In this document: positions 48,411-60,454 of the stretch, one piece after another | Numbering within the stretch: the stretch's first letter is position 1 | How the letters are laid out: every line of letters begins with the position of its first letter | From: Oxalobacteraceae bacterium OTU3CINTB1 | GTDB taxonomy: Bacteria; Pseudomonadota; Gammaproteobacteria; Burkholderiales; Burkholderiaceae_D | Direction: 5' to 3' | NCBI GenBank assembly: GCA_024123955.1 | Contig: CP099652.1 | Location: 3,720,001-3,784,000 of the forward strand | Length of the DNA: 64,000 bases | Notes under the pieces: model-generated | What the model was told of the DNA's origin: nothing | The model's input: the letters and a program-made list of their open reading frames with translations, nothing else | Databases searched by the model: none | Position numbers and translations under genes: made by a program

Positions 48411-50024
48411 TTATTGAGCCAGCTTGATGGTCGCTCTTTTGATGGCCACGGAACCCGCCGTTCCGGGGAATTGGATACCTACGCCGACCGCATTCTGGAC
48501 GCTAAAACCCGAACATGTGAATGCCGTATCCTGCCCAGCCACCAGCACTTTATTGGCCGTCCAGCACTTAAATTCGTAAGCCGCCCAATTGGCGGAATAA
48601 GTAAAGAACTGCAAGAAGCCATCGGCTCCGCCATTTCGATTCGAGATAAACGCTTGATCGAAATTCAGCACCATGTTCAAAGTCGCGCCGCTCCAATTCA
48701 CCGGATGGGTAAAATTATAGGTCGCACCGGCCCCCGCCTGGCTAAGGGTAAGTTGCATATTGGTGGCTGTACTGCTATTTGTGGCGCCACCACCCAAGGT
48801 CCAGCTATTTGGACCCGTGGGCAGGATGACGGATTTCCCGGCTCCGACTAACAGCCCGTCCAATATTTGCTGGTCGCCCACGGCCGGAATGGTGCGATTA
48901 AACAGCAGGCCCGGATCCATCCCGATCTCCCAGTAGAACGGCAGCATGCCATTCGCCAACGCCGCCTTGGTCACATATTGAGAGTAATACGCTCGCGACG
49001 CGCGGTGCAAGGCGAGGTCGGCGCCAGTCAGTTGGGTGCGCAATGTTGCCGCAAATTCCCCCAGCACGACCGGAATCCCCTGGTCCACAAACTTCGTCTT
49101 CATTTTGGCGAATTGCGCATCGACATATGGCTCTTCCTCCCGCGTGGAGTTGCGATAAGGATCGGTGCTCGAATGGTAGCCATTTCCCCAGTAATAGAAC
49201 ACCTGCGAGTAATCCGCGTCTTCAGCCTGGTTGGTGAAACTCCACGGGTAAAAATGGACTTCGGCCATTTGGCGGCCGGCCACAGTATCCGACGGCATCG
49301 CATGCCAATCATTGGCGGCACGATCGATATCGGTCAACGGGGCTTGAATCACCAGCACGCGATAAGCGTTTTTACCGCCCGTCGAACGAACCGCGTTGAC
49401 AAATGTTTGGTGAAAGCCGTCGAGGATGGCTATTTGCTCAGGGGTTTTCGCTTCGGGTTCGTTGGCGCTGGCAAATAGGACATGCTCGTCAAAGTCACGC
49501 AGCTTCGTCGCAATTTGCTCCCAGTAGGCTTTTTGTTTGGCGTTGACGGCAACTTTCTTTTCTTCGGTGATGTTCCGCTCCAGCCAACCGCCGTCCCAAT
49601 GAATGTTGACGATCACGTAAAGCCCGTTATCCACCGCGTACTGCACCACTTGCTTCACGCGGTTGAGCCAGGCATCGCTAATTTTTCCGGTGGTCTGATC
49701 GGCATACTGATCCCAGGAGACGGGAATCCGGATCGCGTCGAAACCGCTGTCTTTCACCAATTTGACATAGGCGGCGGAAACGGCAGGATTGCCCCAGCAA
49801 GTCTCGCCCGGAGTGCTGCAACCGTAAGCGTCCAGCGTGTTGCCAATGTTCGTTCCCAGCTTCACCTTGGCGGCCAACTGTACGGCGTTACTGCTCATGC
49901 CGGTCGCGTTGGGGGCGGCAGGACTGGTGTTGTAATTCGGATAGGACGTCTGGGCGTGCACGCTCACGACGCTTCCTAACAACGCGACAAGCATGGTCCG
50001 AACGACTAAATTTGGTTTCTTCAT
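48411..50024 (-). CDS. Secreted GH5 endoglucanase-like enzyme with C-terminal beta-sandwich module
   Basis: 537 residues. The signal peptide (about 1-24, ending VHAQ) is followed by a short linker and the GH5 barrel with KLGTNIGNTLDAYG near residue 55, IRIPVSWDQY, general acid Glu189 in FASANEPEAK and nucleophile Glu323 in PVVLGEFAATLRT. After about residue 395 comes a non-catalytic beta-rich module (SWTLGGGATNSSTATNMQLT onward) with two cysteines, probably carbohydrate-binding. GGAGACA precedes the ATG. Likely attacks beta-1,4-glucan or mixed glucan/xylan backbones. It is the last gene before the terminator. Base composition is somewhat poorer in GC than its neighbours, which may indicate separate origin. 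Confidence 0.88.
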   Translation of the reverse strand: MKKPNLVVRTMLVALLGSVVSVHAQTSYPNYNTSPAAPNATGMSSNAVQLAAKVKLGTNIGNTLDAYGCSTPGETCWGNPAVSAAYVKLVKDSGFDAIRIPVSWDQYADQTTGKISDAWLNRVKQVVQYAVDNGLYVIVNIHWDGGWLERNITEEKKVAVNAKQKAYWEQIATKLRDFDEHVLFASANEPEAKTPEQIAILDGFHQTFVNAVRSTGGKNAYRVLVIQAPLTDIDRAANDWHAMPSDTVAGRQMAEVHFYPWSFTNQAEDADYSQVFYYWGNGYHSSTDPYRNSTREEEPYVDAQFAKMKTKFVDQGIPVVLGEFAATLRTQLTGADLALHRASRAYYSQYVTKAALANGMLPFYWEIGMDPGLLFNRTIPAVGDQQILDGLLVGAGKSVILPTGPNSWTLGGGATNSSTATNMQLTLSQAGAGATYNFTHPVNWSGATLNMVLNFDQAFISNRNGGADGFLQFFTYSANWAAYEFKCWTANKVLVAGQDTAFTCSGFSVQNAVGVGIQFPGTAGSVAIKRATIKLAQ

Positions 50025-50098: not shown

Positions 50099-51625
50099 CT
50101 ACTCCAAAGCGACCACCATCACAGACTTGGAAGGCACCTTGATCGAGAGCTTGCCACCCGCCGCGCGCGTGCTGAACGCCGCCGGCTTGATGACCTGCGG
50201 ATGCTGGAACGAGTTGTGCGCATCCATCGCGGCCGAGGTCAGCACCTTGCCGGCCGCGCCTTTTGCTTTTGTGCCGGCGACATCGACTGCGACATCCACC
50301 GCCTTATGCGGATCGGTGTTGACCAGCGCCAGGTAGACCTTGCCGTCCTTGGCGCGCGCCGCCGTCGCGCTCACGCCGGGAATGGTCGTCGCGCCCAGGG
50401 TGTAGCTGGTGTTGTCCTTGATCGCCAGCGGCAGCGATTTGGCATCCTGGAACGGCACATACATCTGGAAGGCGTAGTAGGTCGGCGTCAGGACCATCTT
50501 GTCCTTGTCGGTCAGGATCATCGATTGCAGGACGTTGACCATCTGGGCGATGGTGGTCATGGTGACCCGCTCCGCGTGCTCATGGAAGATGTTGAAGGTG
50601 AGCGCCGCCACCAGCGCGTCGCGCAGGGAGTTCTGCTGGAACAGGGCGCTGCTGCTGGTGTCCGCATCCGCATACCAGGTCCCCCATTCGTCGACCATCA
50701 GCCCGATCTTCTTCTCGGGATCGTTCTTGTCCAGCACGGCCAGGTGGTCTTTGACCATCCGATCCATTTTCGAGGCATTGGCAAGCGTCGATATCCATTC
50801 GCCCTCGTCGAAGCCGACGGCCTTGCCCTTGACATCCCAGTTGCCGGTCGGGACCGTATATTGGTGGATGGTGATGCCCGTCGTGCGCCCCTTCAGTTCC
50901 TTGCTCAGGATCTCGGTCCACGACAAGTCGCCGCCCGCAGCGATCATTTTCGGCTTGTTTGGCTCCGGCGCCCTGAGGAAGTTCTCGTAATTCCGGTACA
51001 GGCCGGCGTAGTACTCGGGCTTGACGTTGCCGCCGCAACCCCACATCTCGTTGCCGATACCGAAGAAGGCGACTTTCCACGGCTTGGCGCGGCCGTTCTG
51101 GGCACGCAGCCTGGCCAGGGGTGAGCCGCCGTCCGACGTCATGTACTCGACCCAATCGGACATCTCCTGCACGGTGCCTGTGCCGACGTTGCCGTTGATG
51201 TAAGCATCGGCGCCCAGCATGTCGATCAGGTCGAAGAATTCGTGGGTGCCGACGGCGTTGAACTGGTCCACGCGGTCACCGTGGATGTTGCTCGGGCGCT
51301 TGTCCTGCGGGCCGACGCCGTCGCGCCAATGGTAGGTGTCGGCGAAGCAGCCGCCCGGCCAGCGCACCAGCGGCACATGCAACTCCTTGAGGGCGCCGAC
51401 GACGTCGTTGCGCCAGCCGTTGGTGTTCGGGATGGTCGACTTCGCGCCGACCCACATGCCTTCGTAGACGCCGGTGCCGAGCTGTTCGGCGAATTGGCCG
51501 TACACGTACTTGTTGATGACCGGACCGGGTTTGCCGGCGTCGATGCTGACGCTGACCTGGCCGGCGGCGAATGCCGGCGCCACGATCATGCCCAGAACGG
51601 CGAGGCTGTGTTTGATGCTATTCAT
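50099..51625 (-). CDS. Secreted GH51 alpha-L-arabinofuranosidase
   Basis: 508 residues. The signal peptide MNSIKHSLAVLGMIVAPAFA is followed by the GH51 barrel: the opening INKYVYGQFAEQLGTGVYEG, VRWPGGCFADTYHWRDGVGP, general acid Glu193 in FFGIGNEMWGCGGN and nucleophile Glu313 in LMVDEWGTWYAD. The C-terminal jelly-roll (about 385-508) completes the family layout. It releases arabinose from arabinan or arabinoxylan. GGAG lies 8 bases before the ATG. Most GH51 enzymes of Gram-negatives are cytoplasmic or periplasmic; the clear signal peptide indicates the periplasm here. It lies between the TonB-like/PA14 gene and the GH5 gene in the same operon. Confidence 0.92.
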   Translation of the reverse strand: MNSIKHSLAVLGMIVAPAFAAGQVSVSIDAGKPGPVINKYVYGQFAEQLGTGVYEGMWVGAKSTIPNTNGWRNDVVGALKELHVPLVRWPGGCFADTYHWRDGVGPQDKRPSNIHGDRVDQFNAVGTHEFFDLIDMLGADAYINGNVGTGTVQEMSDWVEYMTSDGGSPLARLRAQNGRAKPWKVAFFGIGNEMWGCGGNVKPEYYAGLYRNYENFLRAPEPNKPKMIAAGGDLSWTEILSKELKGRTTGITIHQYTVPTGNWDVKGKAVGFDEGEWISTLANASKMDRMVKDHLAVLDKNDPEKKIGLMVDEWGTWYADADTSSSALFQQNSLRDALVAALTFNIFHEHAERVTMTTIAQMVNVLQSMILTDKDKMVLTPTYYAFQMYVPFQDAKSLPLAIKDNTSYTLGATTIPGVSATAARAKDGKVYLALVNTDPHKAVDVAVDVAGTKAKGAAGKVLTSAAMDAHNSFQHPQVIKPAAFSTRAAGGKLSIKVPSKSVMVVALE

Positions 51626-51683: not shown

Positions 51684-52565
51684 TCATTCTTTGGGTAGGA
51701 GCGCGGCCAGCGTGCCTGCCGGCGGTCGGCCGATCAGCTTGCGCGGCAGGTAGTCGAAATCGGCCGCGCCGGGCTTGCGCCACCCCAGGATCAACGCGAG
51801 GTTGAATCCCGGCCCCTGGAAGTAGCGCACGCGGAAGTTGCGCAAGCCCTTCTCCAGCTTGACCTTTGCCGTCTCCGGCAATGCTCCATGGATGCCGTCG
51901 TTGTTAATGACGTCCTGATCGTCGATGCTGAGGATGGCGCCGTCGTCGGACAACAGCATCAGCTCCCATGTGCCGGCTTCGGCGACATTGACGGTGAAGC
52001 GGATATCCAGGCCAAACCATTCGTTGGTCGTGCCCAGGCCCGGAAAGCCTTCGCGAAAATCGCGTGGGGCGATATTGAGCTGGGCCAGGCAAACGCGCTT
52101 GACCGGCTTGCGGTGGCGCATTTCCGTCACCGACTGGGTCCCGGTGCGAAGGTTGTAGACATCGGCAACCATGTTCCGGTCCGGCGAGTCCGCGCATTCT
52201 TCGAACACCTTGGGCGGCGTGGCCGCCGCTTTGACTTCGGGCGGCGGCGGGGGAGGCGGGGGCGGGGGCGCGACCACGACCGGCGCCGGGATGGCCTGGG
52301 CCACAGACGGCGGGGCCACCGGGATGTCGGCGACCTTGACGGGAGGCAGTTCCGGCAGGGCGGGGACCTGTACCGGAGGAGGATCGACCTTGCGTGGCTC
52401 GGGCACAGCTTCGGGAATCTTCTTCTCGGGCACTTTCACCTCGAATAGCACGACCTCGACGGTGCGCGGCTCCGGTTTAAGCGCGGGCCGCAATCTAGAC
52501 AGCATCAGGAACGCCCCCAGCGCCAAGTGGAGCAGAATTACAAGGACGATGGCGTAGCGCTTCAC
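51684..52565 (-). CDS. TonB-like anchored proline-rich protein with PA14 head
   Basis: 293 residues. Start GTG overlaps the previous stop (GTGA). An uncleaved membrane helix (about 4-22: YAIVLVILLHLALGAFLML) carries His13, as TonB does in its helix, but lacks the serine four residues earlier. Residues 30-120 are Pro/Glu/Lys/Val-rich, including ten consecutive prolines at 100-109, like the TonB rod. In place of the TonB C-terminal domain there is a PA14-type domain (about 125-280) with LMLLSDDGAILSIDDQ, VINNDGIHG, and VRYFQGPGFNLALILGW. Predicted topology: inner-membrane anchor, rod across the periplasm, glycan-binding head. Function unknown; possibilities are periplasmic oligosaccharide capture, a TonB variant specialised for receptor 2, or a sensor. 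Confidence 0.85.
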   Translation of the reverse strand: MKRYAIVLVILLHLALGAFLMLSRLRPALKPEPRTVEVVLFEVKVPEKKIPEAVPEPRKVDPPPVQVPALPELPPVKVADIPVAPPSVAQAIPAPVVVAPPPPPPPPPPEVKAAATPPKVFEECADSPDRNMVADVYNLRTGTQSVTEMRHRKPVKRVCLAQLNIAPRDFREGFPGLGTTNEWFGLDIRFTVNVAEAGTWELMLLSDDGAILSIDDQDVINNDGIHGALPETAKVKLEKGLRNFRVRYFQGPGFNLALILGWRKPGAADFDYLPRKLIGRPPAGTLAALLPKE

Positions 52566-55500
52566 CGGGCACCGCCGCTTTGTCCGACCCGGTAGTAATC
52601 GAAGTCGACGCGGCCGCCGGCGGTCTTAGTCGAATAGAAGAACAGCGCGTAGCGGTACCCCATGAAGTGCGGGAAGGTGTAGACCAGGTGTGAAGGACGC
52701 CCGATGGGCCTCCAGGATTTGCCGTCGAGGCTGTAGGAGAAGCGGGCCACCTCAGGCGCGCCTGGTAAGCCGTAGGTCTTGCCGCGACCCTCGTCGGCGC
52801 TGAAGCGGGCGTCTTCCGGCGCGGACTGGAATGTGCTGTCGACCTTGAGGTGAACGGTGTTGCCGGAAAGCGGAATGGCGGCGATCTCCTCGGGCTGGCC
52901 GGAGTCGGCGCTGACCATGACGAGCGATTTGGCGCCGCCGCTCATCTTCACGCCGACGAAACCATAGTTTTTCTGAAAAGCGGACAGGCCGGCCCAGTCG
53001 CCGTCTTTCATGCCGCGCACGTCGATGCTGGTGGTGGCGGAACTGTCGGGGCCGAAGGTGCGCTGGGTGAGGGTATTCCTGGCCTCGGGCAGGGTGGCAT
53101 CGACCCGGCTGGTGACGAAGCTCAGGTAGCCCGGGCGCTTGGTGAGCGACCAGTTGCGCGGCTCGGGATTGTGATTCCATTGCCAGGCCAGCGGCAGGGC
53201 GGGGGCGCCCGGCCGGCGGTCGAACTCGTCGGAGGCGACGATGCCGGAGGCGCCGGACGCGCCCTGTGCGCCGGCGGCGATGTCGAGCGTCATGGGCACC
53301 TCGCCGTCCTGGCCGAGCACGGGCCAGCCATCCTTCCAGGTCACGGGTATCAGGTAGGGGATGCGGCCGACGGCGCCGTTGTCCTTGAACAGATAGGCAT
53401 ACCATTTGCCGTCCGGCGTGTCGATCAGGCCGCCCTGGGCGATGCCGCGATCGTCGAGCGCGATGCGTCCCTCGTACGGACCGGTGATGGTGTCGGCGCG
53501 ATGGACGATGGCGGTACGCGCCCAGCGGCTGCCGGGCGAGGCGATGTTGAAGAGGTAGTAGCGGCCGTTGATCTTGGAGAGCTGCGAGCCCTCGCCTTTA
53601 AGTCCGCCCTGGTCGGGGCCGAACAGGGCGTTGACGTTTTCGACGATGACCTGGTTCACGCCGCCGGGCTTGATGCCGGAAAGATCGGGGAGCAGCTCGA
53701 TCAGCGAGATGCGGCCGCCCCCTTGCACCATGTACACGCGGCCGTCGTCGTCGAAAAACAGGCTGTGGTCGCCCAGCGACGGCTTGAAACTGCTCTCTTT
53801 CCACGGGCCGCGATCCGGATCACGCGTGGTGTAGATGTGGGTGCGTTCCGTGTTGGCGGAAAAAGTCGAGGCATGGAACACGCCGTCGTGGTAACGCAGG
53901 CTGCTGGCCCAGGAACCCGCACCGTAGGCATTTTTGCCGTTTTCGAGGCGGAAGGCTTCGTCGTCGACCAGGGTCTCATACGCGTAGGAGGCCATGCTCC
54001 AGTTGACCAGGTCGGTCGATTTCATGATCGGCAGGCCCGGGCTCATGTGCATCGTCGTACTGCTCATGTAGTAGGTCTTACCGACACGGATGACCGCGAT
54101 GTCCGGGACGTCGGCCCAGATCAGCGGATTGTGGGCAAGGTTGGCGCTTGCCGCCGTACGGGGCCGGGAGGCGACTGCGGGATCGTGCCGGGAAAACTGC
54201 CAGTAATCGAACTTGAACAATTCTTCGCCCGCCGCGCCGCGGAACACGAAGTAGAGATCGTGGACGCCGGCGGCTGCGGAGATCCTGGCGGACAGTCGCT
54301 TCCACTCGCCGCCGGTGCCCCGGACCGGCAACGTACCGATCAACTGTCCGTCGAGCTTGTCCAACCGGATCTCGATCCTCGCGCCGGTGGTGTCGATCGC
54401 CTTGGCTTTGCTGGAGAGGATGGCCATGAAGGCGCGCGCGCCGTCGTTACCGAAATCGACATTCCGCACCTGGATGTGGTCGCCGTCGTGGATGTCGCGC
54501 ACATTCTGGCCGCCGGCGCTGTTGGGCTCGATTTTGACACCGGACGACCAGGCGATGGTCTCCGCTTCCACGCGCTTGTAGGGATCGAGCGTGGCAACCG
54601 GCGCCGGCCCCTCCCTGGTCGGCTGCACCGTCTGAACCGAGCCATCCGGATTGAACTTCAACTCATCGACAGCCACGGAACGCTTGAAGCCGTCGCCTCC
54701 CGGCAGCGCGGCGTTGTGGTAGAAGAGGTAGGTCTTGCCCTTGTAATCGACCACGCCTGCATGGTTGGTGAAGGCGCTTTGCGGCGGCATGACAACGCCG
54801 CCGTAAGTCCACGGGCCTTCCGGCGTGGGGCCGGTCGAGTAGGCGAGATGCTCGGGTATAGGGCCGCCGGCAAAAAACAGGTAGTTGAGATTCTTGCGCT
54901 TGTACAGCCAGGGACCTTCCTCGTAGGAGGTGCCGCGCAAGGCGGGCTTCGGCAGCGTCACGCCTGCTTTGTCCGGAGGGTTGCGCTCGCCCAGGGCCTT
55001 GACGGTCATCGGATAGCGAATGATGCCGTTCTCCCCGACGCTGGTGTCGTAGGAAATCATGTCCTTGTTGAGCTTTACCGACCACAGGTTGGGATTGCCC
55101 CAGGCGAGATAGGCCTGGCCCTTGTCGTCGATGGTGACGGTCGGATCGATGCTGTCGTACAGGCCGCCGGCCTGACCGGCGATCAGCGGTTTCTTGATCG
55201 GGTCCGTGTAGGGGCCGAGGGGACTGTCGGCCACCAGCACGCCGATGCCCCGGCCGTGCACCGGGGCATAGAGATACCATTTGCCTTCCCGCTCGATCGC
55301 CTGGGGTGCCCAGGCGCCGTTGTCGACACCGTCCCAGCCGGAGATTTCCTTGGCCGCCCAGGGGAAATCCCTGAGCGAGGCGATCACGCCATGCTGGGTC
55401 CAGTTCACCATGTCCGTGGTCGTGGCGAGCACCCAGTTCTTCATGTTGAAATTGTTCTTTTCGCCGACCTCTTCGTCGTGGCTGGAAAACAGGTAGAGCG

Positions 55501-55633
55501 TGCCGTTATGGACCATCGGGGCCGGATCGGCGGTATACATCGTTTGAATGACCGGGTTGAGCGCGAACGACGCCAAGGGCAGCGACGTCAACGCGGACAG
55601 GAGAACAGCAGCGGAGCGGGTGGATTTTTTCAT
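52562..55633 (-). CDS. Two-headed GH43-CBM6-GH43 enzyme
   Basis: 1023 residues. The signal peptide (1-24: MKKSTRSAAVLLSALTSLPL, ending SFA) is followed by GH43 domain 1 with Asp36 in YTADPAPMVHNG, Asp163 in YDSIDPTVTID and Glu239 in SYEEGPWLYK. A CBM6-like module occupies about 352-482 (VEAETIAWSSGVKIEPNSAG). GH43 domain 2 starts near 500 with Asp511 in ADVPDIAVIRVGKTYYMSS, and a C-terminal concanavalin-like module ends the chain. Both catalytic sets look complete, so it probably removes two kinds of side-chain or linkage (arabinose plus xylose is the usual combination). The ATG at 55633 begins the signal peptide, although its ribosome-binding site is weak. It follows TonB receptor 2 after a hairpin. 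Confidence 0.88.
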   Translation of the reverse strand: MKKSTRSAAVLLSALTSLPLASFALNPVIQTMYTADPAPMVHNGTLYLFSSHDEEVGEKNNFNMKNWVLATTTDMVNWTQHGVIASLRDFPWAAKEISGWDGVDNGAWAPQAIEREGKWYLYAPVHGRGIGVLVADSPLGPYTDPIKKPLIAGQAGGLYDSIDPTVTIDDKGQAYLAWGNPNLWSVKLNKDMISYDTSVGENGIIRYPMTVKALGERNPPDKAGVTLPKPALRGTSYEEGPWLYKRKNLNYLFFAGGPIPEHLAYSTGPTPEGPWTYGGVVMPPQSAFTNHAGVVDYKGKTYLFYHNAALPGGDGFKRSVAVDELKFNPDGSVQTVQPTREGPAPVATLDPYKRVEAETIAWSSGVKIEPNSAGGQNVRDIHDGDHIQVRNVDFGNDGARAFMAILSSKAKAIDTTGARIEIRLDKLDGQLIGTLPVRGTGGEWKRLSARISAAAGVHDLYFVFRGAAGEELFKFDYWQFSRHDPAVASRPRTAASANLAHNPLIWADVPDIAVIRVGKTYYMSSTTMHMSPGLPIMKSTDLVNWSMASYAYETLVDDEAFRLENGKNAYGAGSWASSLRYHDGVFHASTFSANTERTHIYTTRDPDRGPWKESSFKPSLGDHSLFFDDDGRVYMVQGGGRISLIELLPDLSGIKPGGVNQVIVENVNALFGPDQGGLKGEGSQLSKINGRYYLFNIASPGSRWARTAIVHRADTITGPYEGRIALDDRGIAQGGLIDTPDGKWYAYLFKDNGAVGRIPYLIPVTWKDGWPVLGQDGEVPMTLDIAAGAQGASGASGIVASDEFDRRPGAPALPLAWQWNHNPEPRNWSLTKRPGYLSFVTSRVDATLPEARNTLTQRTFGPDSSATTSIDVRGMKDGDWAGLSAFQKNYGFVGVKMSGGAKSLVMVSADSGQPEEIAAIPLSGNTVHLKVDSTFQSAPEDARFSADEGRGKTYGLPGAPEVARFSYSLDGKSWRPIGRPSHLVYTFPHFMGYRYALFFYSTKTAGGRVDFDYYRVGQSGGAR

Positions 55634-55669
55634 GGGGAAGCGAAAAGGGAGCGTTTGGCCGGTAGCGAA

Positions 55670-55703
55670 GCGGCCCCCCGCGAGAAAAAAGGGGGGGGGC
55701 CGC
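55670..55703. repeat. GC-rich hairpin between receptor 2 and the two-headed GH43 gene
   Basis: Arms GCGGCCCCCC (55670-55679) and GGGGGGCCGC (55694-55703) enclose a 14-base loop containing AAAAAA and part of a nine-G run. It lies in the 81-base gap after the receptor stop. Likely an intra-operon attenuator or mRNA-stability element that separates the receptor message from the enzyme messages; the G9 run is also a place where a sequencing or replication slip could occur. Confidence 0.6.
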
Positions 55704-55714
55704 CTCGCCACGTC

Positions 55715-58700
55715 CTAGTACGTGTAGCGCAACGACAGGCGATAACTGCGGCCTGGCTCGAACCAGGCGCGGTTCATGTTGCCGATGGTTTGCTGTTGGG
55801 TCTGCCTGACAACGTCGTCCAACAGGTTGCTTGCCGAAAAACTGGCCTGGATGTGGTCGTTGAAGCGGTAGTCGAAGCCGAAGTCCAGCTGTCCGGCCGC
55901 TTCCTGCCAGGTCGGCAAGCCCCAGCCGACGTCGCGCGGATAGACCGTCTTGCCGTCGACCACCGTGGCGCGGGTCGGATCTGCGCTGGTGCCGGTGTCG
56001 CCCTGCGTGCCGTTGACGGAGACGCCCTGCAGGAAACGGCTGCGCCAGCTGTAGGCCAGGCGCATCGACATCGGCCCCTGGTCGTACATCAGCATGAAGT
56101 TGTAGGCGTTTTTCGACAGGTACTGCAATGGCATGTCGGTGAACGGCAGGCCGTTGGTGTCGCAGCCCAGCACGTTCAGGGAACTGTTGTTAAACGAACC
56201 GGCGGCCGGGCAGTACTTCAGATCGAACGGATGGTGCAGCGTCTGCTTGCTCTTGATATACGTGTAGTTCGCCGAGACGCCAAAGCCCTTGGCCCAATCC
56301 GGCAGCACGCGCGACAACCCCGGCACGTTGTTGAAGTAGGTTTGGCCGGCGAGTTCCAAACCGGTCACCGAACCGTCGGACGCATTGTCCGGCGCGGTGA
56401 TCGTGAAGGTTTGCGCATTGCCGGCCAGATCGTTGTAATCGCGGGTATAGGCCGAGCGCATGATGATGTCGGTCACCTTTTTGTAGAAGGCGGTGGCCGT
56501 CAGCGAACTGCCGTTGCCAGGATACCACTCAAGCGCCAGGTCGAAACTGTTGGCCTTGGTGGGCTTCAAATGGACGTTGCCCTTGTTCTCGCCCCGGTAA
56601 TTGACGTTCTGCAGCGGGCCGCCGTCGGGCGCATAGATCACATTCTGCTTCAGCTCGATGTACTCGTTCAGGTCGGCAAAACTCGGCCGATACATCGACT
56701 TGCCGAAGGCGAAGCGCGCTTGCACCTGCGGGGTGAATTCCACCTTCAGGTTCACGCTCGGCAGCACGTCGACGGCGCTTTTGCCGTCGTTGATCGGCTG
56801 GTTGATCGGTCCGAACTTCGGCACCGACGGCGGCGCGTTGGTGCTGTAGACCGGCAGGAACACGGTGTAGCCGTGGGCCACCGTCTTGGTATGGACCACG
56901 CGCACGCCGGCGCTGCCCTCAACCGGGAAGCGCAGATCGTCGAAGCCGAAGCGCGTCGACAGGTAGCCGGCTTCGGTCCGCTCCGCCTGGCGGCTGGTTT
57001 TGGACGGCGCGCCGTCGTAGACCAGCGGTTTCCAGGGGTCGTCCATGGCCGAGCAGTCGCGGTTGGTGCCGAACGCCACGTTGGCGTCCTGGCATTGCAT
57101 CTTCTTCAGGTCGTTCACACCCGCGTAGGCGTTGGGATAGTCCTTGACCGAGGCCAGCGTCGGCACCACCAGCGCGCCCGGCGTCGGGATCTTGCCGTTG
57201 AAGAAGTTCTTAAAGTCGTAGGTGGTGGTTGGCGTCAGGGCCGCGTAGCGCGGGTCGCTCAGGTAACTGAAATTGGCGCGACTGCCGCCGCCCGGGTCCG
57301 TCGCCATGGCAGGCTGCCCCGGCGTGGACGTCGGCTTGACTTCCCATGGCAGCGAGGCGCTGTACCAGGTCGATCCGCTTGCCTCGACGCGCTCCGCCTT
57401 GCGCCGGGTGGCGCGCACGCCGAAGCGCAGGTCGCGCAGGATCGGATGGTCGAACTTGAAGCGCACGTCGGTTTTCCACGCATACAGGTCGGCCTCGGCC
57501 TTGTTCTTGCCCGGCATGAAGTTCTCCAGGTAGTAGTTGCCCGGATCCTTCAGGAAGGCCTTGGCCTTGTCGTCGAAGGTGATCTGGCCGGGATTGCCGG
57601 TCAGGTCGATATTCATGCTCGGCACGAAGGTGGCCAAGGTGATGTTGCCGTTCCAACTCTTGTTGGTCGAGTGAACCCATTGCAGGTCGTTCTGCAACGA
57701 CCAGCGCTCGTCGATATTCCACTTGGCGTTCCAGGCGACTTCCCGCGTCTGCGAGCGCCGGTCGCTGTAAGTCTGATTGGAGTTGAAACCCAGCCCGCCC
57801 TCGACGAAATTGTTCGAGCCCCGGCCGCCGGTCGGATAGGTGTACCTGGCCGATTGCAGCACGCCCCGGCTATCGAACACCGGATCGATCAGCTTGGTCT
57901 TGTACGGGTCCTCGACACCCGTGTACAGCGCGTTCTCGGTGCCGGTTTCGTTGTAGGCGGAGTGGAAGTAGGTGAGGGCGGACTGAAGGCCGCCCTTTTT
58001 CCACTGCAGCGCGCCATATGCGCCGACGCGGTCGTTCTTGCTGGTATTGGTGCGCCACGAGGCCGATTTGGGCACCCACATGGTTTGTCCGGGGGCGAAG
58101 TCGGTGCGGGGGAAGTAGGCGTCGACTTGCACCGTGTCGTTGTGGGAATTGGTCCGGTTGCCCGACAGGTTGAGCAGCGCGCCCCATTGGCCGAAATCGT
58201 TTTCCCAGCGTTTCGACACCAGGCCGGACAGGGCGGGCGAGGTCTTCGCGCCAAGCTCGTTGTAGTTGACGTAGGTCGAGGCGGCGAATTTATCGCCCTT
58301 GTAGTCGAACGGCAGCGCGGTGCGCAAGTCGACCTGGCCGCTGACGCCGCCTTCGATCAAGTCCGCCGGCGGGTTCTTGTGCACCACCACGGCCGACATC
58401 AGTTCGGCCGGAATGTCGCCCCAGCTCAACTCGCGCCCCGGATAGCCGGCCGAGAACGATTCGCGGCCGTTCAGGGTGGACGAACCCCAGGTCAGGCCGC
58501 GCACCGAGATGCCAGAGCCCTCGACCGAGAAATGCTCCGGGTCGCCGCGCGAGCGGTTGCGGTCCATCGTCACGCCGACGATGCGCTGCAGCACCTCGGT
58601 GATCGACTTGTCGGGCAGCTTGCCGGCCTCTTCGGCGACGACGCCGTCGACGATCTCCTCGGCATTCTGTTTGAGCTTGGTGGCCGACTGCATCGCCGCG

Positions 58701-58873
58701 CGCTGGCCGCTCACGACCACGCTGACGACTTCCTCGTCCTTGGCCGGCGGTGCGGCGGGCGCCGTCTGCGCCTGCGCCGCGCCGCTGTAGAGCGCCGCGA
58801 CCTGCGCCGCCGCGAGCGCCAGCGCGGTCATCCGCAAGGGTTCCCGCTTGATCTTGGTTCCGATTGTCTTCAT
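55715..58873 (-). CDS. TonB-dependent receptor 2 (carbohydrate type)
   Basis: 1052 residues. The signal peptide ends near residue 36 (GAAQAQ). The TonB box region EEVVSVVVSGQRAAMQSAT precedes the plug, with GKLPDKSITEVLQRIVGVTM and GSGISVRGLTWGSSTLNGRE. The barrel ends GRSYRLSLRYTY with an aromatic final residue. GGAGACA precedes the ATG at 58873. The pattern LPDKSITEVLQRIxGV is that of proteobacterial carbohydrate receptors. It is preceded in the operon by a surface-type lipoprotein and followed by the two-headed GH43, a TonB-like/PA14 protein, GH51 and GH5, so an arabinose/xylose-containing oligosaccharide is the expected ligand. Confidence 0.93.
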   Translation of the reverse strand: MKTIGTKIKREPLRMTALALAAAQVAALYSGAAQAQTAPAAPPAKDEEVVSVVVSGQRAAMQSATKLKQNAEEIVDGVVAEEAGKLPDKSITEVLQRIVGVTMDRNRSRGDPEHFSVEGSGISVRGLTWGSSTLNGRESFSAGYPGRELSWGDIPAELMSAVVVHKNPPADLIEGGVSGQVDLRTALPFDYKGDKFAASTYVNYNELGAKTSPALSGLVSKRWENDFGQWGALLNLSGNRTNSHNDTVQVDAYFPRTDFAPGQTMWVPKSASWRTNTSKNDRVGAYGALQWKKGGLQSALTYFHSAYNETGTENALYTGVEDPYKTKLIDPVFDSRGVLQSARYTYPTGGRGSNNFVEGGLGFNSNQTYSDRRSQTREVAWNAKWNIDERWSLQNDLQWVHSTNKSWNGNITLATFVPSMNIDLTGNPGQITFDDKAKAFLKDPGNYYLENFMPGKNKAEADLYAWKTDVRFKFDHPILRDLRFGVRATRRKAERVEASGSTWYSASLPWEVKPTSTPGQPAMATDPGGGSRANFSYLSDPRYAALTPTTTYDFKNFFNGKIPTPGALVVPTLASVKDYPNAYAGVNDLKKMQCQDANVAFGTNRDCSAMDDPWKPLVYDGAPSKTSRQAERTEAGYLSTRFGFDDLRFPVEGSAGVRVVHTKTVAHGYTVFLPVYSTNAPPSVPKFGPINQPINDGKSAVDVLPSVNLKVEFTPQVQARFAFGKSMYRPSFADLNEYIELKQNVIYAPDGGPLQNVNYRGENKGNVHLKPTKANSFDLALEWYPGNGSSLTATAFYKKVTDIIMRSAYTRDYNDLAGNAQTFTITAPDNASDGSVTGLELAGQTYFNNVPGLSRVLPDWAKGFGVSANYTYIKSKQTLHHPFDLKYCPAAGSFNNSSLNVLGCDTNGLPFTDMPLQYLSKNAYNFMLMYDQGPMSMRLAYSWRSRFLQGVSVNGTQGDTGTSADPTRATVVDGKTVYPRDVGWGLPTWQEAAGQLDFGFDYRFNDHIQASFSASNLLDDVVRQTQQQTIGNMNRAWFEPGRSYRLSLRYTY

Positions 58874-58923
58874 TGTCTCCGTCCTGTTGAAATCTTGTAG
58901 TTGTTTTGTCTGGCCGCGCGCCA

Positions 58924-60195
58924 TCACTGGATCGTGATCGGTCCGGTCAGCGTGATCGTGGTCGGGTAATTCGGCGCCGGCAAAGTCCTGCTCGGCACTT
59001 TGGCGTTGCCGTTCGCGGAGGCGAACCGTATCGCGACGACCGGATAATCCTGCATCTCGAACCAGGGGTTCAGATCGGTCAATTCGCACGACTCCGAGAC
59101 GGTGAAGTCCTTGAGGTTGAGGCTGTAGCTGGCCGGCGCCGGGGAGTTCGGCTTGAAACTCGCGCGTACCCGCACGTTGCAGTTGCCGTTGTCCTTCTTA
59201 CGGTTGTAGTGGCCGAGGATCAAATCGACTTCGACCACGTTGTCGCCCGTATCGAACCATTCCTGGTTCTGCGAGAGGTTAAACTTGACCGCCGCTTGCG
59301 CATCGATGCGCACGCCGTCCGGCGTGTCCCCCGTGGTCGAGATCTGCGTGACCTTGGGCGCAAAGACGTCCAGTTCCGCGAACACCTTCCACCAGCGTCC
59401 GTCGGTGTAGGGCTCCTGCTTCCACGTGTAGGTATCGCTGATGCTGGCGCCGTCCGCCGACACGCTGGCATCGCACCAGCCGTTACACCACCAATCCCTG
59501 GTGCTGCTGCCGCCGTGCGGATCGACTTTGCCATCCTCGTTGGTGGTGGTCGTGTTCTTGTAGCCGCTCAAGAACTTGATCTCGGGCGCCAGCGCGCTTC
59601 CGACCGGTATGGTCTTGACCACTTTCGCCGTCTCGTAGATATCGGCGCCGTCCGCCGTGGCGGTGACGACGCACAACCCGTTGGCAAGCTTTTGCATCGT
59701 GTTGCCGCTGACCGAGCACACCTCCGGCGTGCTGGTGGTAAAAACGACCGGGAGGGCAGCATTGGAACTTGCCACCAGCGGCACGGGCACCGTGTCCAGC
59801 GGCAGCCCGCCCGGGTTACGGAAGGAGACCGACGCCGGCCGCTTGGGAATGACGAACAGCTGGCGCGCCGTGGCCGGGGCGTAGCCATCGCCACCGGCTT
59901 GGTTGGCGTTCAACGAACACTCGCCCGCCTTGAGCAGCGACACCGTGGCGCCGCTGATGGAACAGGTGCCCGGCGTGTTCGACACGTAGGTGACCGGGCC
60001 GCCGGAACTGGCCGTCGCCTTCAGGGTGATGGTCGCGACGGTCGGCGGCACACCGATCACTTCCCCGCCCGGGAACGGGAAGGAAACCGATTGCGCCATC
60101 CCGCCTTCGCCGCCGCCACCTCCGCCGCCACCGCCTCCGCAGGCCGCCAGCAGCGTGGCGCAGGCCAGCCCGATGGCCGTGAACTGGAATTTCAT
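58924..60195 (-). CDS. Ig-repeat lipoprotein, possible receptor-associated glycan binder
   Basis: 423 residues. The lipobox LAAC gives lipidated Cys19, followed by ten glycines (20-29), a flexible tether common in surface lipoproteins. Two similar beta modules follow (about 38-120 and 125-205), each with a paired-cysteine pattern such as PGTCSISGATVSLLKAGECS and PEVCSVSGNTMQKLANGLCV. The rest (205-423) is an unrecognised beta-rich domain with RDWWCNGWCDASVSADGASI. GAGGGGAC is well placed for the ATG at 60195; an in-frame ATG 15 bases earlier lacks a site. It is the first gene of the operon, immediately before TonB receptor 2, a position where SusD-like proteins occur in Bacteroidetes; a similar glycan-capture role is inference. 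Confidence 0.75.
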   Translation of the reverse strand: MKFQFTAIGLACATLLAACGGGGGGGGGGEGGMAQSVSFPFPGGEVIGVPPTVATITLKATASSGGPVTYVSNTPGTCSISGATVSLLKAGECSLNANQAGGDGYAPATARQLFVIPKRPASVSFRNPGGLPLDTVPVPLVASSNAALPVVFTTSTPEVCSVSGNTMQKLANGLCVVTATADGADIYETAKVVKTIPVGSALAPEIKFLSGYKNTTTTNEDGKVDPHGGSSTRDWWCNGWCDASVSADGASISDTYTWKQEPYTDGRWWKVFAELDVFAPKVTQISTTGDTPDGVRIDAQAAVKFNLSQNQEWFDTGDNVVEVDLILGHYNRKKDNGNCNVRVRASFKPNSPAPASYSLNLKDFTVSESCELTDLNPWFEMQDYPVVAIRFASANGNAKVPSRTLPAPNYPTTITLTGPITIQ

Positions 60196-60454
60196 TTGTT
60201 GTCCCCTCATGATTTTATCGTTCCTCTCTGTTGCGTTTACTACGAGCCGCTCGTCATCGGCGACGCCGCCGCCGAGTAAAAATTTGCCGACGCCGCGCTG
60301 CCTGACTGGATATTATGTGGAGTGAAAATCGTTGCCGCAATTACAAAAAAACTCAATACAACAGATGAAATTCGGTAATGCGCCCCGGTCATTGACAGCG
60401 CGCTTGCGGACGCGCAGCATGCCTTCCCAGTACGTCTAAACAGGACCGCAAGCC

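Follow-up and report, generated by a model that had tools for sequence, protein, structure and literature searches.

We analysed a stretch of 64,000 nucleotides (hereafter the window) from the genome of the soil-type bacterium Oxalobacteraceae bacterium OTU3CINTB1 (contig CP099652.1, positions 3,720,001 to 3,784,000). Its gene 51684-52565 encodes a protein, below called the PA14 rod, in which a TonB-like membrane anchor and a proline-rich rod carry a PA14 head. This composition had been proposed in an earlier note from the sequence letters, and it was confirmed. The gene is single-copy in the genome. As also proposed, it shares four bases with the gene of a GH43-CBM6-GH43 enzyme. The features of the gene are listed below, with the evidence in brackets.

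51684-52565, minus strand: PA14-headed TonB-like protein, 293 residues, GTG start (open reading frame (ORF), Pfam, homologues, predicted structure)
52497-52559, minus strand: N-terminal membrane helix, residues 3-23 (predicted structure and hydropathy)
52527-52529, minus strand: His13 inside the helix (no exception among the 63 aligned family members)
52212-52496, minus strand: Pro/Glu/Lys-rich linker, residues 24-118 (sequence; low predicted local distance difference test score, pLDDT, in the predicted structure)
52239-52268, minus strand: run of ten prolines, residues 100-109 (sequence)
51687-52211, minus strand: PA14 head, residues 119-293 (Pfam, residues 175-268; structure, residues 125-291)
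51942-51947, minus strand: Asp207-Asp208, at the site of the D-cis-D calcium motif (kept in all 63 aligned members; alignment and PMC6650083)
52562-52565, minus strand: GTGA, overlap with the GH43 gene (sequence)

The single-sequence search produced 228 homologues at E<=1e-3 and the profile search at least 233. Among the best 120 of each set, the few named homologues come from Duganella, Pseudoduganella, Massilia, Roseateles/Pelomonas and one Devosia. Since there are more than 200 homologues and the anchor residues Ala5 and His13 are invariant, the architecture is more than a chance assembly.

Membrane anchor and rod

The N-terminal helix (hydropathy 2.62) contains a histidine, as had been claimed. 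In the 63 aligned sequences only Ala5 and His13 of the helix are invariant; Leu16 is kept in 61, and the other positions drift. The head motif is present in 121 of 127 measured members; a clear helix was scored in 110 of the 121, and in every one of these 110 the histidine lies within it. The remaining 17 (181-322 residues long) are six proteins without the head motif as written and eleven without a helix score above 1.6. Thus the protein has the TonB family trait of an N-terminal helix with a conserved histidine.

When compared with the helix of HasB (reference sequence from PMC9008036), the window helix ranks first among 216 segments; this comparison uses one reference helix, picked after the resemblance had been noticed, and loci L008, L024 and L054 were left out. 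The ranking supports, without proving, an ExbB-type partner for the helix. A histidine in a helix was observed in 7 of 34 segments from the OTU3CINTB1 genome and 32 of 116 from its relatives, a biased sample, as the segments were drawn from stretches around exbD and tonB genes and from the PA14-rod family. By eye, these matches are TonB- or TolA-type proteins, members of the PA14-rod family or of the A2 family (our label for an exbB-exbD-linked family with a non-TonB head), signal peptides with an Ala-His-Ala-like site at the end, or questionable ORFs.

The possibility that the segment is a cleaved signal peptide was likewise judged by eye. The invariant histidine and the long N-terminus of the relatives speak for an anchor, and no small-x-small motif directly follows the window helix; on the other hand, Ser-Arg-Ala is found there in some relatives. 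The window copy has four residues before the helix, compared with a median of 27 in the relatives. There are no in-frame ATG, GTG or TTG codons upstream of the gene in the window, and thus either the cytoplasmic tail of this copy is very short or its start is unusual.

The linker, described earlier as about 90 residues with ten prolines in a row, has about 95 residues, or 94 by the measure applied across the family, 32% of them proline, and its longest proline run is exactly 10. Across the 110 members the linkers have 87-113 residues and a median of 33% proline, a length that would suffice to span the periplasm. The single histidine-bearing N-terminal helix, the proline-rich linker of periplasmic length and the periplasmic head are all reminiscent of TonB, HasB and TolA.

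In other genomes, the N-terminal half of the family profile also retrieves TonB itself and further TonB-like anchors. When 21 loci with weak N-terminal matches were opened, 18 had a central ORF and three did not. Five of the 18 ORFs end in an apparent TonB domain (L039, L040, L041, L067, L086), and nine are similarly built anchors that end differently. The remaining four were rejected as wrong frames produced by a crude gene caller. Loci L071, L072, L073, L075, L076, L081, L087, L089 and L094 encode a histidine-bearing N-terminal helix and a proline-rich linker, followed by ends unlike TonB domains.

The PA14 head

The predicted structure of residues 125-291 is a PA14 beta-sandwich, and Pfam family PF07691 matches the head with E 5.6e-9 (36.4 bits, cut-off 24). 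The landmarks on which the PA14 assignment had been based were located at residues 206-210 (SDDGA), 221-227 (NNDGIHG) and 248-253 (YFQGPG). All 63 members match PF07691 at E<=1 (best 5e-14), and at the same threshold none matches PF03544 or PF13103, in agreement with the proposed absence of a TonB domain. Thus, in contrast to TonB, HasB and TolA, the protein lacks TonB_C and TonB_2 and carries PA14 instead. It also differs from the PA14 domains of MpPA14, MhPA14, RsgI3 and the Flo/Epa adhesins in that its head sits on a membrane rod.

The closest solved fold is the PA14 pair of the RsgI anti-sigma factors. A role as a biomass sensor of this kind is nevertheless very unlikely: the N-terminus, short even in the relatives, leaves no cytoplasmic signalling domain, and no anti-sigma domain was matched by Pfam.

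Asp207 and Asp208, which belong to the Asp-Asp-Gly motif of calcium-dependent PA14 lectins, are invariant in all 63 members and by sequence correspond to the D-cis-D pair. Cys124 and Cys159 are invariant in the family and perhaps form a disulfide holding the head.

The family profile also retrieved giant adhesin-like open frames with PA14 domains in L025 and L027 (6,100 and 12,678 residues). One of these PA14 domains was compared and resembles the PA14 pairs of 6qdi and 6qe7.

Gene neighbourhood and distribution

The gene belongs to a minus-strand row, listed here in transcriptional order; the PA14 rod gene lies between the third and fourth entries.

58924-60210, minus strand: 428-residue protein with a lipoprotein-like start and a glycine run, no Pfam family (related proteins are encoded at this place in L109 and L110)
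55715-59089, minus strand: TonB-dependent receptor of Xanthomonas/Caulobacter type (Pfam)
52562-55711, minus strand: GH43-CBM6-GH43 enzyme, upstream neighbour (Pfam)
50099-51625, minus strand: alpha-L-arabinofuranosidase, GH51-type by its Pfam C-terminal domain, downstream neighbour (Pfam)
48411-50024, minus strand: GH5 with CBM15 (Pfam)

The neighbourhood was compared in 14 distinct loci (the window, L001=L108, L002=L112, L003, L004=L145, L005, L006, L007, L106, L107, L109, L110, L111 and L113). Neighbour counts are lower bounds, as several stretches end at contig ends and the tblastn queries were window proteins only. The link to glycoside hydrolases and TonB receptors, claimed previously, held throughout for the hydrolases and in part for the receptors. 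A hydrolase gene was found in 14 of 14 loci (for L006 from tblastn matches of 23-41% identity alone), and a receptor gene, within the available flanks, in six (the window, L005, L106, L109, L110, L111). The GH43-CBM6-GH43 gene or its orthologue at 79-87% identity occurs in eight loci including the window, as two ORFs in L005. The window order is repeated in L110 from the 428-residue protein through GH51. The hydrolase neighbours are of arabinoxylan type, and the gene linkage is supported. The nearest receptor gene lies just upstream of the GH43 gene, but the PA14 rod is tied to no single receptor.

In four Pelomonas and Burkholderiales loci an N-terminally anchored protein of about 335 residues with an Ala/Pro linker is encoded directly after the PA14 rod gene (L003:10560-11570, L004:10550-11560, L006:10687-11679, L007:10551-11540). 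The L004 copy belongs to no Pfam family.

The distribution of the PA14 rod is patchy. Full-length matches were found in 7 of 74 genomes of the genus. One genome outside the genus (G667) had such a match in a sample of 294 from the family. In a sample of 399 from the order, full-length matches were confined to the OTU3CINTB1 genome, in a survey that scored at most five candidates per genome and so may have missed some. This pattern bears on the possibility that the protein is a TolA- or GltJ-type envelope-organising rod, energised by ExbBD or TolQR, with PA14 binding peptidoglycan, lipopolysaccharide or an outer-membrane protein. The N-terminal part does have sub-threshold similarity to TolA and GltJ, and adhesion is also a role of PA14 domains. 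However, the patchy distribution and the constant hydrolase neighbours favour a dietary role, and we consider an envelope-organising rod unlikely.

The gene copy in L006 (10001-10601) is split into two frames and contains ambiguous bases. An internal TAG in the G444 copy was rejected as a defect; it is most likely the ordinary end, since L111 has an intact ORF there. The split copy, together with the missing N-terminal extension in the window, could point to a functionless remnant, formed from a TonB gene by loss of its end and gain of a PA14 piece. Given the number of homologues and the invariant residues in both anchor and head, this is scarcely credible.

ExbB/ExbD and possible function

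Rods with non-TonB heads beside dedicated exbBD genes exist in these bacteria. The OTU3CINTB1 genome has seven exbD genes, and at L054:3497-6256 (G000:C1, about 4426496-4429255) exbB and exbD are followed by the gene of a 511-residue TonB-like protein with a Ser-x3-His helix, a long stalk and a C-terminal head without a Pfam family. All 17 further loci examined in the genus contain this exbB-exbD-A2 trio, and the A2 helix has Ser-x3-His in 35 of 35 proteins. A2 resembles the PA14 rod in that its TonB-type anchor bears a head that is not a TonB domain. The trio is present in four of the seven genus genomes with a PA14 rod versus 12 of the 67 without (p 0.035), but the PA14 rod does not depend on it.

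The architecture, the predicted fold, the family conservation, the missing TonB domain and the gene context are thus established, and the earlier interpretation as a whole is partly supported. We tentatively favour, at slightly less than an even chance, an energised glycan-handling rod of TonB type, in which a lectin-type PA14 domain replaces the receptor-binding TonB domain. The histidine-bearing helix would probably dock on ExbB/ExbD, the rod would, judging by its length, cross the periplasm, and the head would probably bind arabinoxylan-derived glycans. The receptor plug would be opened by an ordinary TonB of the same genome, not by the PA14 rod. In Teredinibacter, either of two TonB genes is needed for growth on cellulose (PMC10734418). 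The head might then take hold of the incoming glycan at the receptor encoded in its own gene row, or below that receptor, and proton-motive force might be used to draw the glycan in or pass it to the GH43 and GH51 enzymes; the pulling step is our inference.

The nearest precedent is FusB of Pectobacterium, a TonB-like protein that binds its ferredoxin cargo as well as the TonB box of the receptor, and for which a role in pulling the cargo through has been proposed (PMC7593965). Both rods are encoded with an uptake system; direct grip on the substrate has been shown for FusB, whereas for the PA14 rod it is presumed. The cargo of FusB is a protein, that of the PA14 rod presumably a sugar. A head able only to hold cargo would be a further step beyond FusB. 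The specific model in which an ExbBD-coupled, lectin-headed rod physically pulls hemicellulose fragments, or delivers them, behind a TonB-dependent receptor and is, with A2, one of several TonB-type motors whose heads bind something other than the TonB box, is doubtful at present.

A number of observations weigh against an energised glycan-handling rod. FusB has a C-terminal domain for the TonB box, and the PA14 rod has none. The E. coli TonB helix has a serine four residues ahead of the histidine. At this position the 63 PA14 rods have valine (46), alanine (15) or methionine (2), and never serine, though HasB as printed likewise lacks it (PMC9008036). Genes exbB and exbD lie near the PA14 rod gene in only one of the 14 loci, L004, where the row is exbB, exbD, their own TonB-like protein, GH2 and then the PA14 gene, so that this exbBD pair already has a rod. 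The window has none, and in the other 12 loci none were found by tblastn with the L054 pair as the only query. The A2 trio is absent from two of the six genomes reached by PA14-rod loci and thus is not required. In the second loop of MhPA14, Asp181 is a calcium ligand and Gln182 a sugar contact (PMC6650083). By a two-step sequence alignment via an adhesin PA14 they correspond to Gln250 and Gly251, both invariant in 63 of 63 members; hence sugar binding may differ or be lost. Finally, neither xylan nor arabinan was bound by MpPA14 (PMC8092209), and RsgI PA14 is described in a review-type passage as binding pectin (PMC6116742). Other PA14 domains also differ at the position of Asp181, with Glu in the adhesin piece and Asn in 6qdi, so the head may still bind calcium; its binding of sugar is plausible from the sequence, with uncertain chemistry.

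That no exbBD pair was found next to the gene in 13 of the 14 loci would be natural if the helix were only an anchor, and the head concentrated arabinoxylan oligosaccharides or the GH43 and GH51 enzymes in the periplasm without energy. Glycosidases and adhesins often use PA14 as a binding module, and the enzymes are supplied by the same gene row. However, anchoring alone explains neither an invariant histidine in an otherwise drifting helix nor the likeness to the helices of HasB, TonB and TolA. Such a passive tether is a serious but minority possibility.

Among the papers listed by searches of the open-licence PMC literature, none was seen to describe a PA14 head on a TonB-type anchor, and the excerpts of PMC6851124, PMC12484212 and PMC6116742 do not describe one. 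The protein thus combines known parts in a conserved way and is tied to hemicellulose genes. It touches the question of how large glycans pass through TonB-dependent receptors, and whether an energised rod contacts the cargo. With a natural TonB-type rod bearing a lectin-type head in hemicellulose gene rows, in bacteria that have cultured relatives, this question becomes testable with sugars. The PA14 rod also suggests that the ExbBD-type anchor may serve as a socket for different periplasmic heads.

At L057:4016-4798 the OTU3CINTB1 genome encodes two small tandem proteins, each with a short N-terminal hydrophobic segment and little beyond a TonB C-terminal domain.
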